From Thiospirochaeta perfilievii (GTDB lineage: Bacteria > Spirochaetota > Spirochaetia > DSM-2461), in the NCBI RefSeq assembly GCF_008329945.1, contig NZ_CP035807.1, positions 620,001 to 684,000 of the forward strand: DNA of 64,000 bases, in the 5' to 3' direction. How positions within the stretch are numbered: the stretch's first letter is position 1; each line of letters opens with the position of its first letter. The position numbers were made by a program, and so were the translations under genes. Shown here in pieces: positions 21,223-45,945 of this stretch. The notes beneath the pieces are model-generated. The model did no database searches. It had not been told where the DNA came from and saw only the letters and a list, made by a program, of their open reading frames with translations.

Positions 21223-21612
21223 TTACTGAATAATAAAGGTAAAGAGCTCTTTCTCCCCAGAATAGAGAGAAAGTGTATCACCTTCAATTCGAAAAGTGTC
21301 TATACTCTCTAGTAGAGGAAAGACTAACTCTCCCATATCATTTTCAACATACATTTTAGTAGAAGCAGATAGACCAAAACTTATAGAACTACCTTCAGTT
21401 GAAAACTCTCCAAAGAAAGTATTTCCACCTCCATTTCCACTATAACGATTCTCATCGAATGTTAATTCGACTCCTGGTTCAACTTCTACACCATCAATTT
21501 TTTGTAAAAACCATTGGTTCTCTATACTTACCTCTTCCCTGGACTCAACCCTATTACTTACACAACTAAAAAGAAATATAGGCAGTAAAAATATTAATAA
21601 TAACTTCTTCAT
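21223..21612 (-). CDS. META/HslJ-domain lipoprotein
   Basis: A 129-residue exported protein. The lipobox IFLFSC follows a short hydrophobic signal, so it is probably a lipoprotein. The rest resembles the META domain (seen in HslJ): QWFLQKIDGVEVEPGVELTFDENRYSGNGGGNTFFGEF. The function of this domain is not well known. The gene start carries the rebuilt ribosome site at the edge of IS110 copy 1: AGGAGATTAAATG. Before that insertion it would have followed the nucleotidyltransferase gene (stop at 23001) directly, with the ribosome site adjoining that stop codon. Confidence 0.75.
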   Translation of the reverse strand: MKKLLLIFLLPIFLFSCVSNRVESREEVSIENQWFLQKIDGVEVEPGVELTFDENRYSGNGGGNTFFGEFSTEGSSISFGLSASTKMYVENDMGELVFPLLESIDTFRIEGDTLSLYSGEKELFTFIIQ

Positions 21613-21672
21613 TTAATCTCCTATAAAAAGTCAATATATACCCTTCCGTAAAAAAGCATATATCGTGCTGTT

Positions 21673-22785
21673 CTACACAGCAAGTGCGGCACCTAATGCT
21701 GTCGCCTGCATTTCTCTATATTTACTATTGTGAGCCATTTTCTGAGGATCAAATGGTTCTCTAGTTTTTAGTATTGTATAAACTATGGTACTCATTTTTC
21801 TGGCTGTAGCTATAATACTTTTCCCAGAACCTTTATGTTTTTTCATATCTGTATACCTACTCATTAATCTGTATCCCATAGTATGTTTTTTACTTCTAAT
21901 CATTCCCATTACAGTTTGTACAAATGCAGTTCTAAGCTCTACTGGTCCTCTTTTCGTTATATGACCATGATGTATTGTCATATTTGAGTTTTGAACCCAT
22001 GGAACAAGTCCTGCATGTGCTGCATATTTTTTTGCACTACTGTATCTTTCAATATCATCAGTAAATGCTCTTATTGTTGATGCTGTTATTATTCCAACAC
22101 CAGGTATTGTTTGAAGAAGTGCAACATCTTCATCTTCTTCAACCATTTTAGCTAAGACTTTTTCTAAAATCTTGACTTCTGATGATACCTGATCTATCGT
22201 ATTAAGTAGCGGTCTTACCGCATTGGCGGCGTTTCCGTTAAACCTATGGTCTTCGAGACCCACAAGGATTCGCTGCCTCTCTTTTTTACTTTGCAACTGT
22301 CCTCTTTTGGATTCAATACCATATCCAAGTAATAGACCATGAACTTGATTTTTTAAAGAAACAACAGTTTTTACTAAAATAGATCGTGACTTTAATATTC
22401 TTCTGATATCTTCACTTTCCTGAGAACATAAAATCGACTCTGGAAGCATATCTTTTTCCAAAAACTCTGCTAATGTTCTTGCATCATGCTTATCTGTTTT
22501 CTTCACAGACTCATTTATAACTTTGAACTTCAGTGTATTCACAACTTTTACTTCAATTCCTGCACTAATCATTTTGTTTCTAAAAAATCTTGCATTTCCA
22601 GTTGATTCAACAGCAATAGATATTTCGTATCCTTGCTCTATCCATTCTTTAACCTGTTTTAAGAATTCTCCATACCCCGTTTTATTTGTTGGATACATTC
22701 CTGATTCTTCAATTTTACGATCTTCACTAAGTGAAAGTGTTGTAAATTGTGTTTTGTGTAGGTCTGAACCTATACTAAGTTTCAT
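21673..22785 (-). CDS. IS110-family transposase (DEDD recombinase), copy 1
   Basis: A 370-residue transposase. The N-terminal RuvC-like DEDD domain shows Asp8 (GSDLHKT), Glu60 (AVESTG), Asp98 and Asp101 (KTDKHDART). The C-terminal domain has IPGVGIITAS and AAHAGLVPWVQNSNM, where Ser267 fits the catalytic Ser of the family, then TKRGPVELR. Compared with copy 2 there are two substitutions, Gly39 for Glu and Arg357 for Lys. Both copies are full length, so both could be active. In known members this protein works with a bridge RNA encoded in the element. Confidence 0.95.
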   Translation of the reverse strand: MKLSIGSDLHKTQFTTLSLSEDRKIEESGMYPTNKTGYGEFLKQVKEWIEQGYEISIAVESTGNARFFRNKMISAGIEVKVVNTLKFKVINESVKKTDKHDARTLAEFLEKDMLPESILCSQESEDIRRILKSRSILVKTVVSLKNQVHGLLLGYGIESKRGQLQSKKERQRILVGLEDHRFNGNAANAVRPLLNTIDQVSSEVKILEKVLAKMVEEDEDVALLQTIPGVGIITASTIRAFTDDIERYSSAKKYAAHAGLVPWVQNSNMTIHHGHITKRGPVELRTAFVQTVMGMIRSKKHTMGYRLMSRYTDMKKHKGSGKSIIATARKMSTIVYTILKTREPFDPQKMAHNSKYREMQATALGAALAV

Positions 22786-22789
22786 ATAT

Positions 22790-22938
22790 TGCCCCCTATA
22801 TTAGACAGCTCCTGTACGGTTGATTAACTCCAATCTCCTATTCGGTCTCGCAGACCATTGAATGTTACGGCTACAGCTCTTCAATCTCCTTTGCGGTCTC
22901 GCAGACCAATAAATATGACGAACAGTAGCTTTGCTGTC
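22790..22938 (-). ncRNA. Candidate bridge RNA of IS110 copy 1
   Basis: On the minus strand a TATAAT box (22950-22945) precedes a short hairpin and then two similar units of about 32 bases, 51 bases apart. Each unit has the hairpin GGTCTGCGAGACC (22895-22907 and 22844-22856) and then an AGGAGATT stretch. The first unit reads AAAGGAGATT, as in the target left by this insertion; the second reads ATAGGAGATT, as at the element's own end (TATAGGAG). Two internal loops for target and donor are what bridge RNAs of IS110 elements show. No good -35 box is seen; ends are approximate. Confidence 0.65.
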
Positions 22939-23000
22939 TTACTAATTATAAAACAGTCTATCAACCAAAGGGGTTATATTTACTTTTTATCATTCCTCCT

Positions 23001-23906
23001 TTAAAATAGTTTATTGGGGTAGGCACCACTCTCCACAAGGGCTCTTACACTTTTAACAACCATATCCTTATCCTCTGGATAGGTAACACCAAACCAAGAG
23101 TCCTTAGATGTTAAAACTTCAGCACTAGCTCTACCCTCTTTTATTAAATCTGCAACAACAGATGGGATATAAAACTCAGACTTTAACTCATTACCTCTAT
23201 CCTTTAAGAAAGCTGTAAACATTCTCTCTAAATGGTCAAAAAGTGTTGGAGTAAAGCCCCAAAAGTTCATAGAAACAACCTCATCCCCTGTTAAAGAGAG
23301 TTTGCTCCCATCCTCTAATGTAGCCTCGGCACCACTAGCTGTTTTTACTATATTAGTTCGTTCAACAACTGTATCTAAAATATTGTTATCCCCTAATTCA
23401 CATACACCCCTGGATACAAAACCATTTTCAGATAGGGTATTACTTAGAACAAAACCTACCATAGAGTATTGATCAATAGTACTAGTACTTACTTCTTTTA
23501 ACTTCTGTCCAAGTAGGGTATATGCACTCTTCCCATAAAAGTCATCTGCATTTATTACTGCAAATGGCTCTTTTACAATATTCCTAGCAGCATAAATTGC
23601 ATGGCCTGTTCCCCATGGCTTCTCTCTACCCTCTGGAACTTGAAACCCATTAGGTAGATCGTTAAGTTGTTGGTAGGCGTACTCAACAGGAATTATATCC
23701 TGGAATCTACGACCTATATGCTCTTTGAACATATCTTCAATATCTTTTCTTATAACAAATACAACTTTTCCAAAACCTGCTTTTACTGCATCATATATTG
23801 AGTAATCAATTATTATCTCGCCATTTGGTCCAATTGGATCTATCTGCTTTAAGCCTCCATATCGACTTCCCATTCCTGCAGCTAATACTAAAAGTGTTGG
23901 TTTCAT
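23001..23906 (-). CDS. Sugar-phosphate nucleotidyltransferase family protein
   Basis: A 301-residue nucleotidyltransferase. The N-terminus LLVLAAGMGSRYGGLKQ is the nucleotide-binding signature (GxGxRxxxLxK type) of this superfamily, and VINADDFYG holds the metal-binding Asp residues. WGTGHAI is also typical. It should join a sugar phosphate to a nucleotide to make an NDP-sugar; the exact sugar is not clear, and it is not a close match in motif to GalU or RfbA. It is downstream of the PHP gene. Its TAA stop is 1 base from the AGGAG at the edge of IS110 copy 1. Confidence 0.75.
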   Translation of the reverse strand: MKPTLLVLAAGMGSRYGGLKQIDPIGPNGEIIIDYSIYDAVKAGFGKVVFVIRKDIEDMFKEHIGRRFQDIIPVEYAYQQLNDLPNGFQVPEGREKPWGTGHAIYAARNIVKEPFAVINADDFYGKSAYTLLGQKLKEVSTSTIDQYSMVGFVLSNTLSENGFVSRGVCELGDNNILDTVVERTNIVKTASGAEATLEDGSKLSLTGDEVVSMNFWGFTPTLFDHLERMFTAFLKDRGNELKSEFYIPSVVADLIKEGRASAEVLTSKDSWFGVTYPEDKDMVVKSVRALVESGAYPNKLF

Positions 23907-43770: not shown

Positions 43771-43830
43771 TTTTTCTCCTATAAAAAGTCAATATATACC
43801 CTTCCGTAAAAAAGCATATATCGTGCTGTT

Positions 43831-44943
43831 CTACACAGCAAGTGCGGCACCTAATGCTGTCGCCTGCATTTCTTTATATTTACTATTGTGAGCCATTTTC
43901 TGAGGATCAAATGGTTCTCTAGTTTTTAGTATTGTATAAACTATGGTACTCATTTTTCTGGCTGTAGCTATAATACTTTTCCCAGAACCTTTATGTTTTT
44001 TCATATCTGTATACCTACTCATTAATCTGTATCCCATAGTATGTTTTTTACTTCTAATCATTCCCATTACAGTTTGTACAAATGCAGTTCTAAGCTCTAC
44101 TGGTCCTCTTTTCGTTATATGACCATGATGTATTGTCATATTTGAGTTTTGAACCCATGGAACAAGTCCTGCATGTGCTGCATATTTTTTTGCACTACTG
44201 TATCTTTCAATATCATCAGTAAATGCTCTTATTGTTGATGCTGTTATTATTCCAACACCAGGTATTGTTTGAAGAAGTGCAACATCTTCATCTTCTTCAA
44301 CCATTTTAGCTAAGACTTTTTCTAAAATCTTGACTTCTGATGATACCTGATCTATCGTATTAAGTAGCGGTCTTACCGCATTGGCGGCGTTTCCGTTAAA
44401 CCTATGGTCTTCGAGACCCACAAGGATTCGCTGCCTCTCTTTTTTACTTTGCAACTGTCCTCTTTTGGATTCAATACCATATCCAAGTAATAGACCATGA
44501 ACTTGATTTTTTAAAGAAACAACAGTTTTTACTAAAATAGATCGTGACTTTAATATTCTTCTGATATCTTCACTTTCCTGAGAACATAAAATCGACTCTG
44601 GAAGCATATCTTTTTCCAAAAACTCTGCTAATGTTCTTGCATCATGCTTATCTGTTTTCTTCACAGACTCATTTATAACTTTGAACTTCAGTGTATTCAC
44701 AACTTTTACTTCAATTCCTGCACTAATCATTTTGTTTCTAAAAAATCTTGCATTTCCAGTTGATTCAACAGCAATAGATATTTCGTATCCTTGCTCTATC
44801 CATTCTTTAACCTGTTTTAAGAATTCTTCATATCCCGTTTTATTTGTTGGATACATTCCTGATTCTTCAATTTTACGATCTTCACTAAGTGAAAGTGTTG
44901 TAAATTGTGTTTTGTGTAGGTCTGAACCTATACTAAGTTTCAT
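43831..44943 (-). CDS. IS110-family transposase (DEDD recombinase), copy 2
   Basis: A 370-residue transposase identical to copy 1 except for Glu39 and Lys357. It keeps the D8-E60-D98-D101 set and Ser267. No frameshift or stop is seen. The near identity shows that one copy moved recently. Confidence 0.95.
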   Translation of the reverse strand: MKLSIGSDLHKTQFTTLSLSEDRKIEESGMYPTNKTGYEEFLKQVKEWIEQGYEISIAVESTGNARFFRNKMISAGIEVKVVNTLKFKVINESVKKTDKHDARTLAEFLEKDMLPESILCSQESEDIRRILKSRSILVKTVVSLKNQVHGLLLGYGIESKRGQLQSKKERQRILVGLEDHRFNGNAANAVRPLLNTIDQVSSEVKILEKVLAKMVEEDEDVALLQTIPGVGIITASTIRAFTDDIERYSSAKKYAAHAGLVPWVQNSNMTIHHGHITKRGPVELRTAFVQTVMGMIRSKKHTMGYRLMSRYTDMKKHKGSGKSIIATARKMSTIVYTILKTREPFDPQKMAHNSKYKEMQATALGAALAV

Positions 44944-44947
44944 ATAT

Positions 44948-45096
44948 TGCCCCCTATATTAGACAGCTCCTGTACGGTTGATTAACTCCAATCTCCTATT
45001 CGGTCTCGCAGACCATTGAATGTTACGGCTACAGCTCTTCAATCTCCTTTGCGGTCTCGCAGACCAATAAATATGACGAACAGTAGCTTTGCTGTC
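44948..45096 (-). ncRNA. Candidate bridge RNA of IS110 copy 2
   Basis: Same sequence as the candidate RNA in copy 1, with the two GGTCTGCGAGACC hairpin units, the AAAGGAGATT and ATAGGAGATT stretches and the short 5' hairpin. The only difference I see in the whole non-coding part lies upstream of the RNA (AAAAGGG instead of AAAGGGG). It suggests both copies share the same target program. Confidence 0.6.
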
Positions 45097-45147
45097 TTAC
45101 TAATTATAAAACAGTCTATCAACCAAAAGGGTTATATTTACTTTTTA

Positions 45148-45945
45148 TCATTCCTCCTTTAAAATAAGTAAAATTAAAAATATAAAACTCCCTAAAACAG
45201 CCATTAAACCACTAGCAGGGAGATCGAATACAAGGGATGAAACTGTTCCACTTAAACTTAGAAAAAGACCAAAGGATATACTTAATAGAGTATAAAACTT
45301 CTGTCCTCTTTTCCAAAAACTAGATAGTACTACAGGAAGAATAAGTAGAACATCCACAAGCAGAGCCCCTAATAACTTCATAGCCAAGGCTACTGATATA
45401 CCGATAAAAAGGTTAATCATATAGCTAAATAGTTTAGTATTAACACCTAAGCTCCTAGCCATTATAGGATCAAAGAGATAGGCAATAAATTGATTTCTAA
45501 ATGCAACAAACATAAAAATAATAATTAAAGCCCAGATAATAAATACAATAAGATCACTACGACTTAAGGCGTAGGGGCTACCCCACAATAAGGATAAAAT
45601 AGTTTGACCCGGGACTGACTTAACCTGGGTTACTATGGCTGCACCACCAAGGGAGGCGACCATAAAAAATGAACTTAATCTTCCTAGGTCCATAAACTTG
45701 TTTATATTAACATAGGAGATAATAATAACAAATATTATATTTATCCCCACCATAAACAGCAGTGGAGATTGATTTAATACAACAGCAAGAGATCCACCAA
45801 AAAGCGCACCATGCATTAACATAAACCTCATAGGAAGTAGGTTTAATTCAATTAATGGCATACCACAAAGAGGAAGAACTAATCCAGCAATAATAAGAGC
45901 AATTATACCCCTCTGAATTGGGGCTAAAGATAATAACTCAAGCAC
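45148..45945 (-). CDS. Metal ABC transporter, permease (ZnuB/TroC-like)
   Basis: A 265-residue membrane protein with about seven to eight hydrophobic segments, of the ABC-3 permease family. Typical sequence: LPLCGMPLIELNLLPMRFMLMHGALFGG, FDPIMARSLGVNTKLFSYMINLFIGISVALAMKLLGALLVDVLLILP. Its last residues (KEE) and TGA stop are supplied by the edge of IS110 copy 2. It overlaps the DUF1893-ATPase gene by 8 bases. It should pass Zn, Mn or Fe with the nearby ATPase and binding protein. Confidence 0.85.
   Translation of the reverse strand: MLELLSLAPIQRGIIALIIAGLVLPLCGMPLIELNLLPMRFMLMHGALFGGSLAVVLNQSPLLFMVGINIIFVIIISYVNINKFMDLGRLSSFFMVASLGGAAIVTQVKSVPGQTILSLLWGSPYALSRSDLIVFIIWALIIIFMFVAFRNQFIAYLFDPIMARSLGVNTKLFSYMINLFIGISVALAMKLLGALLVDVLLILPVVLSSFWKRGQKFYTLLSISFGLFLSLSGTVSSLVFDLPASGLMAVLGSFIFLILLILKEE

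Follow-up and report, generated by a model that had tools for sequence, protein, structure and literature searches.

A predicted bridge RNA of an IS110-family element in Thiospirochaeta perfilievii that covaries with Shine-Dalgarno and start codon targets

We analyzed a 64,000-nucleotide stretch of the Thiospirochaeta perfilievii genome (contig NZ_CP035807.1, positions 620,001 to 684,000; hereafter the window, whose own numbering is used throughout), which carries two copies of an IS110-family insertion element. The non-coding DNA upstream of the transposase gene of copy 1 very probably encodes a bridge RNA (seekRNA) of the IS110-family recombinase, predicted here from sequence comparison, with one loop for the target and one for the donor. 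This reading is directly supported by the anatomy of the element, a conserved fold, a four-way covariation between guides and DNA, and the context of the target sites. A first-pass annotation had proposed a bridge RNA in which unit 1 carries the target and unit 2 the element ends, and both the fold and the covariation of all four loop-to-DNA relations bear this out. What it had missed was the nature of the target, a Shine-Dalgarno sequence followed by a start codon.

The element ends were defined from a flank comparison among the six copies that the 3.70-Mb genome contains. This comparison placed all six at one type of site and in one orientation; the two copies in the window are offset by 22,158 bases and are 99.4% identical over 1,418 aligned bases. 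At the left junction, AAAGGAG (five copies) or ATAGGAG (one copy) is followed by GAATGATAAAAAGT, and the right end is TTGACTTTTTATAGGAG in every copy, with host DNA next to it. Across the six copies there is no target duplication beyond the short shared core AGGAG/GGAG, as the IS110 family requires. Because AGGAG is common to target and element, the exact crossover falls within those bases.

The non-coding stretch 5' of the transposase ATG measures 215 bases, as stated in the first-pass annotation, and on the minus strand it holds two GGTCTGCGAGACC hairpins at 22907-22895 and 22856-22844, exactly the 51 bases apart that had been described for the two units. The hairpins are followed by GCAAAGGAGATT in unit 1 and GAATAGGAGATT in unit 2. 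The candidate RNA had been placed at 22786-22950; the region was right but the limit was not, as the RNA-like region reaches about 22970 and our covariance model matches 22818-22970.

The fold was examined by aligning the non-coding 5' regions of ten Spirochaetota homologues (with 55-73% identical transposases, and others). RNAalifold and an explicit count of pairs both gave a closing stem, the stem of the target loop and the two hairpins. Standard pairs filled 95.9% of the pair cells, compared with 20-44% for slid partners, and 11 of 29 pairs had changed on both sides. Doubly changed cells numbered 26 as against 8.4 in shuffled alignments, and none of 500 shuffles reached the observed covariation score. 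The check proposed earlier, folding and covariation in related non-coding ends, thus returned a conserved two-loop structure. The RNA region of the window itself also folds more stably than its shuffles (z = -2.25). The covariance model, R1, detects this RNA in 25 of 395 Spirochaetia genomes, frequently more than once per genome. Among the distant elements of Lentisphaeria and Clostridia it gave no significant match (best score 15 bits), their loops being similar by eye, and an Rfam search of the window returned no family at threshold. An RNA on the opposite strand was rejected, as its arm pairing topology would fit neither known group.

We give almost no credence to the idea that the two units arose by chance tandem duplication and have no guiding role. 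The units of the window element do share identical 13-base hairpins, but the hairpins of relatives differ and still pair (GGTC/GACC, GACC/GGTC, GGCC/GGCC, AGCC/GGCT), and the guide arms evolve with the target and the donor respectively.

The correspondence between guides and DNA was assessed in 23 element types with ends and flanks, the guides being permuted among types; copies from genomes G534 and G576, whose RNAs are identical, were pooled, and some flanks came from contig ends. In the comparison of the 3' arm of the target loop with the left target, the base immediately 5' of AGGAG (position 6) matched in 89% of cases compared with 49% expected (P=5e-5), and position 7 in 69% compared with 27% (P=1.5e-4). 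Each of the four bases is found at position 6 of this guide in some elements, and the target follows; the suggestion that elements with different guide letters should sit in different targets was therefore borne out, the base before AGGAG (A, G, T or C) being tracked by the target. The 5' arm of the target loop varied with the right target (P=4e-4) when anchored at the core with a two-base linker, a register that sets the invariant CAT opposite the ATG at spacing 5, and base-level covariation was found at spacer positions +3 to +5. Registers with a linker of 1 or 3 gave no signal (P=0.96 and 0.22).

The donor loop follows the ends of the element. Its 5' arm is an exact complement of the left end in 14 of 21 cases, compared with 5.0 expected (P=5e-5), through pairs such as CATTC/GAATG, CATAC/GTATG, CGTGC/GCACG and CGTTC/GAACG. 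The first of these is the complement that the first-pass annotation had seen in the window (22864-22860 with 22995-22991). The 3' arm equals the right end in all 16 of the 16 families compared (ATAGGAG, n=10; ATGGGAG, n=6), in agreement with the earlier match of unit 2 (ATAGGAG) to the element end, which reads TATAGGAG. In one genome (G200), five copies with the guide TTAGGAG lie in TAGGAG sites, and a sixth, variant copy with the guide AAAGGAG lies in an AAAGGAG site, while the donor arm and right end are ATGGGAG in all copies. These copies are a case of natural reprogramming that cleanly separates target from donor.

Two details of the earlier description had to be narrowed. Unit 1 had been matched to ten bases of the copy 1 target, and AAAGGAG followed by ATT is indeed present in both; only AAAGGAG is general, and ATT is a coincidence, as GGAG is followed at the six sites by ATT, AAA, GTT, TTT, ACT and ATA. 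Likewise, the single A/T difference said to separate target from donor exactly holds for five of the six targets (AAAGGAG), but the sixth is ATAGGAG.

An alternative that we consider very unlikely is that Shine-Dalgarno DNA is recognised directly by the recombinase protein, with the upstream RNA serving as a regulatory leader of the transposase and its AGGAG tracts as ribosome-binding decoys. The near-constancy of AGGAG in all loops and targets would suit such a protein. The bases flanking the core, by contrast, vary among elements and track the loop letters (P=5e-5), even within one genome, and the arms of the donor loop track both element ends, something a leader has no need to do.

The host DNA 3' of GGAG reads N5-6-ATG in all six copies, and a reading frame begins at this ATG. 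Before insertion the site thus read AAAGGAG-N5/6-ATG, a Shine-Dalgarno sequence with its start codon. At copy 1 the target is the start of a 129-aa gene at 21223-21612. Across 15 families, an ATG lies 5-8 bases past GGAG in 39 of 39 available right flanks, and 37 of these open a frame that is at least 40 aa long or reaches the end of the fetched sequence. AAAGGAG occurs at 1,085 sites genome-wide, with an ATG 5-8 bases downstream in 163 (15%), so that this heptamer alone is no predictor of insertion sites. The element always has the orientation of the downstream gene, and TATAGGAG in its right end restores a Shine-Dalgarno sequence to that gene after insertion. Relatives in Lentisphaeria and Clostridia likewise sit before an ATG, as judged by eye.

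It is also conceivable, although we think it improbable, that the bridge RNA reads only the Shine-Dalgarno half and that start codons are enriched through selective loss of insertions elsewhere, inside genes. This explanation is compatible with a bridge RNA, and our confidences in the two are not exclusive. A rebuilt Shine-Dalgarno sequence would make insertions at start sites the tolerated ones, and both the weaker signal of the right guide and an ATG spacing of 5 to 8 speak for it. Against it stand the presence of an ATG at all 39 sites over a background of 15%, the covariation in the spacer and the invariance of CAT in the 5' arm.

Several observations weigh against the bridge-RNA reading. 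The permuted families are related, some by recent descent, and are not fully independent. Positions 8-9 of the 3' arm match the left target at chance level, pairing being absent past about 7 bases. The right-target signal is modest; it comes from the most favorable of the eight registers and pairing rules tried, and its P value is about 0.003 after correction. A rigid duplex leaves the variable spacing between GGAG and ATG (5-8) unexplained, and the guides of some elements (L073, L077, G060) mismatch their target or end. In addition, the invariant CAT of loop 1 also pairs with an AUG inside the RNA, and its invariance may be structural.

RNA guiding by IS110 and IS1111 elements is already established, and the arrangement found here can be set beside both groups. 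As in IS621 (Durrant et al. 2024, PMC11208160; Hiraizumi et al. 2024, PMC11208158), a two-loop RNA lies upstream of a recombinase with DEDD and Ser, the first loop carrying the target and the second the donor. For IS621, pairing is between the 5' arm and the left bottom strand and between the 3' arm and the right top strand (PMC11208160), whereas the spirochaete elements have the arms swapped; assigning the 5' arm of the first loop to the left target, as in IS621, gave no match, and this orientation was rejected. The inverted repeat of IS621 is 2-3 bp, compared with 9 bp, subterminal, in the window element (ATAAAAAGT/ACTTTTTAT), and the Shine-Dalgarno and start codon target also sets the window element apart. 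In the IS1111 group the guide order is the reverse of that in IS621 (PMC11187229). The seekRNAs of this group (ISEc11, ISPa11, ISKpn4, IS4321; Siddiquee et al. 2024, PMC11187229) resemble ours in having the top-strand match 5' of the bottom-strand match, an order that we checked in IS4321 (AAAACGGAAA, complementary to the top strand, stands before TATTTTC, which has the top-strand sequence), and in a long subterminal inverted repeat (7-17 bp class). The assignment of left and right guides, previously called uncertain, thus reads as IS1111 rather than IS110/IS621. Unlike those of the spirochaete elements, IS1111-group RNAs lie downstream of the transposase, and their recombinases have Ser-Gly, compared with Ser-Asn in the spirochaete clade. 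ISMtsp17 is a stated exception, an IS1111 relative with an upstream region (PMC11187229), so the combination of order and position may not be unique.

On balance we favor, with some reserve, a distinct RNA-guided lineage that combines IS1111-type guide order and repeats, an IS110-type RNA position and the Ser-Asn motif, and that reads Shine-Dalgarno plus start codon across several phyla. If so, it would target a function, the start of translation, instead of one particular locus, and the element end would restore that target. The unusual pairing of guide order and RNA position bears on the divergence of IS110 and IS1111. A 31%-identical element on a Rhizobium leguminosarum plasmid (L135, NZ_CP030761.1) has an RNA-like region downstream of its transposase; by eye, its loop letters are CTAGGAG and ATTGGAG, its site is A/TAGGAG...ATG and its right end is ATTGGAG. 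It is a possible link between the IS1111-type and IS110-type layouts.

RNA production, recombinase binding, strand-exchange chemistry and a circle-junction promoter are steps that we infer from what is known of the family. The RNA would be transcribed in the transposase sense from the junction of the excised circle, where TTGACT of the right end and TAAAAA/TAAAAT of the left end lie 17 bases apart and form a putative promoter, TTGACT-17-TAAAAA; transcription from the circle junction has been demonstrated for IS621 and ISEc21 (PMC11208160, PMC11187229). The folded RNA would consist of a 5' stem-loop and two similar loops within one long closing stem, loop 1 holding the Shine-Dalgarno and start codon target and loop 2 the element ends as joined in the circle, ATAGGAG with the right end and CATTC with the left. 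Recombination in the shared GGAG core would then insert the element between Shine-Dalgarno sequence and start codon in the orientation of the gene, the right end providing a new signal, TATAGGAG-N5-8-ATG.

Insertion into translation-initiation signals is already known for IS900, an IS110-family element of Mycobacterium avium subsp. paratuberculosis, whose target motif is CATGNNNNNNTCTCCTT (PMC8141618, citing Doran et al. 1997). On the other strand this motif reads AAGGAGANNNNNNCATG, a Shine-Dalgarno sequence with a start codon as in the window element. A literature search, with subscription journals mostly outside its scope, found no paper tying the IS900 target to a guide RNA. Our results may offer an RNA-guided explanation for this older observation of insertion sequences landing on translation start signals, and they give a natural example of bridge-RNA retargeting within one genome. 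A recombinase that inserts before genes, in their orientation, while rebuilding the ribosome-binding site may also be of practical interest.

Table 1. Features of the element and its predicted RNA (window coordinates)
Feature	Position	Strand	Remark
IS110-family element, copy 1	21618..22995	-	1,378 bp, AGGAG core counted once; core recurs at left junction
Element copy 2, same orientation as copy 1	43776..45153	-	99.4% identical to copy 1
Transposase/recombinase, 370 aa	21673..22785	-	DEDD_Tnp_IS110 + Transposase_20
Predicted bridge RNA (closing stem, 5' stem-loop, target loop, donor loop)	22818..22970	-	model R1, 143 bits
Closing stem, 5' side GGTTGAT	22960..22966	-	pairs with ATCAACC at 22818-22824
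Target-loop 5' guide CATATTTATT	22908..22917	-	predicted to pair with right target through ATG; P=0.0004; invariant CAT
Unit 1 hairpin GGTCTGCGAGACC, target loop	22895..22907	-	
Target-loop 3' guide AAAGGAG	22886..22892	-	equals left target, Shine-Dalgarno
Donor-loop 5' guide CATTC	22860..22864	-	complement of GAATG at left end; 14/21 exact, P=5e-5
Unit 2 hairpin GGTCTGCGAGACC, donor loop	22844..22856	-	
Donor-loop 3' guide ATAGGAG	22835..22841	-	equals element right end; 16/16 families
Left target half AAAGGAG, target-derived	22996..23002	-	flank comparison
Left-end donor half GAATG	22991..22995	-	flank comparison, 23-type extraction
9-bp subterminal inverted repeat ACTTTTTAT	21623..21631	-	partner ATAAAAAGT at 22982-22990
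Right end TTGACTTTTTATAGGAG	21618..21634	-	-35-like box, subterminal repeat and rebuilt Shine-Dalgarno
Right target half ATTAAATG	21610..21617	-	ends in start codon of downstream gene 21223-21612

The two Pfam domains of the recombinase were matched at 54.9 and 65.1 bits, and the protein scored 207 bits with NF033542, above the cut-off of 140. In an alignment it keeps the D, E, D, D and catalytic Ser positions of IS621 and ISCro4, the catalytic Ser being followed by Asn, not Gly. This Ser-Asn (GLVPWVQNSN, residues ~259-268) replaces the otherwise conserved Ser-Gly throughout the clade and in the Lentisphaeria and Clostridia relatives. A tree with IS110 and IS1111 groups had long branches and deep forks without resolution, giving no firm grouping with IS4321. 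No relative of the transposase was found on IMG/VR viral contigs.

A 17-base signature of the right end, TTGACTTNTTATAGGAG, was present in 31 of 393 Spirochaetota genomes, and a reversed-pattern control in two. It marks full-length elements as well as miniature ones of about 140-190 bp, which have internal palindromes and no transposase and occur in Treponema-type genomes. The miniature elements start with AGGAGNNNNGATAAA, finish with TTGACTTTTTATAGGAG and are located before start codons (L099 1358-1517 on the reverse strand, L095-L098, L104, L108, L118, L123, L128); matches to them fall at 20-57 places per genome in G171, G142, G206, G317 and G413, many being partial or overlapping. They appear to be non-autonomous relatives, likewise inserting at Shine-Dalgarno sites. 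The T. perfilievii genome also contains three copies of another IS110-family element, which is only distantly related (L013, L014, L015; G000:C1:1082792, 3587315, 311916).
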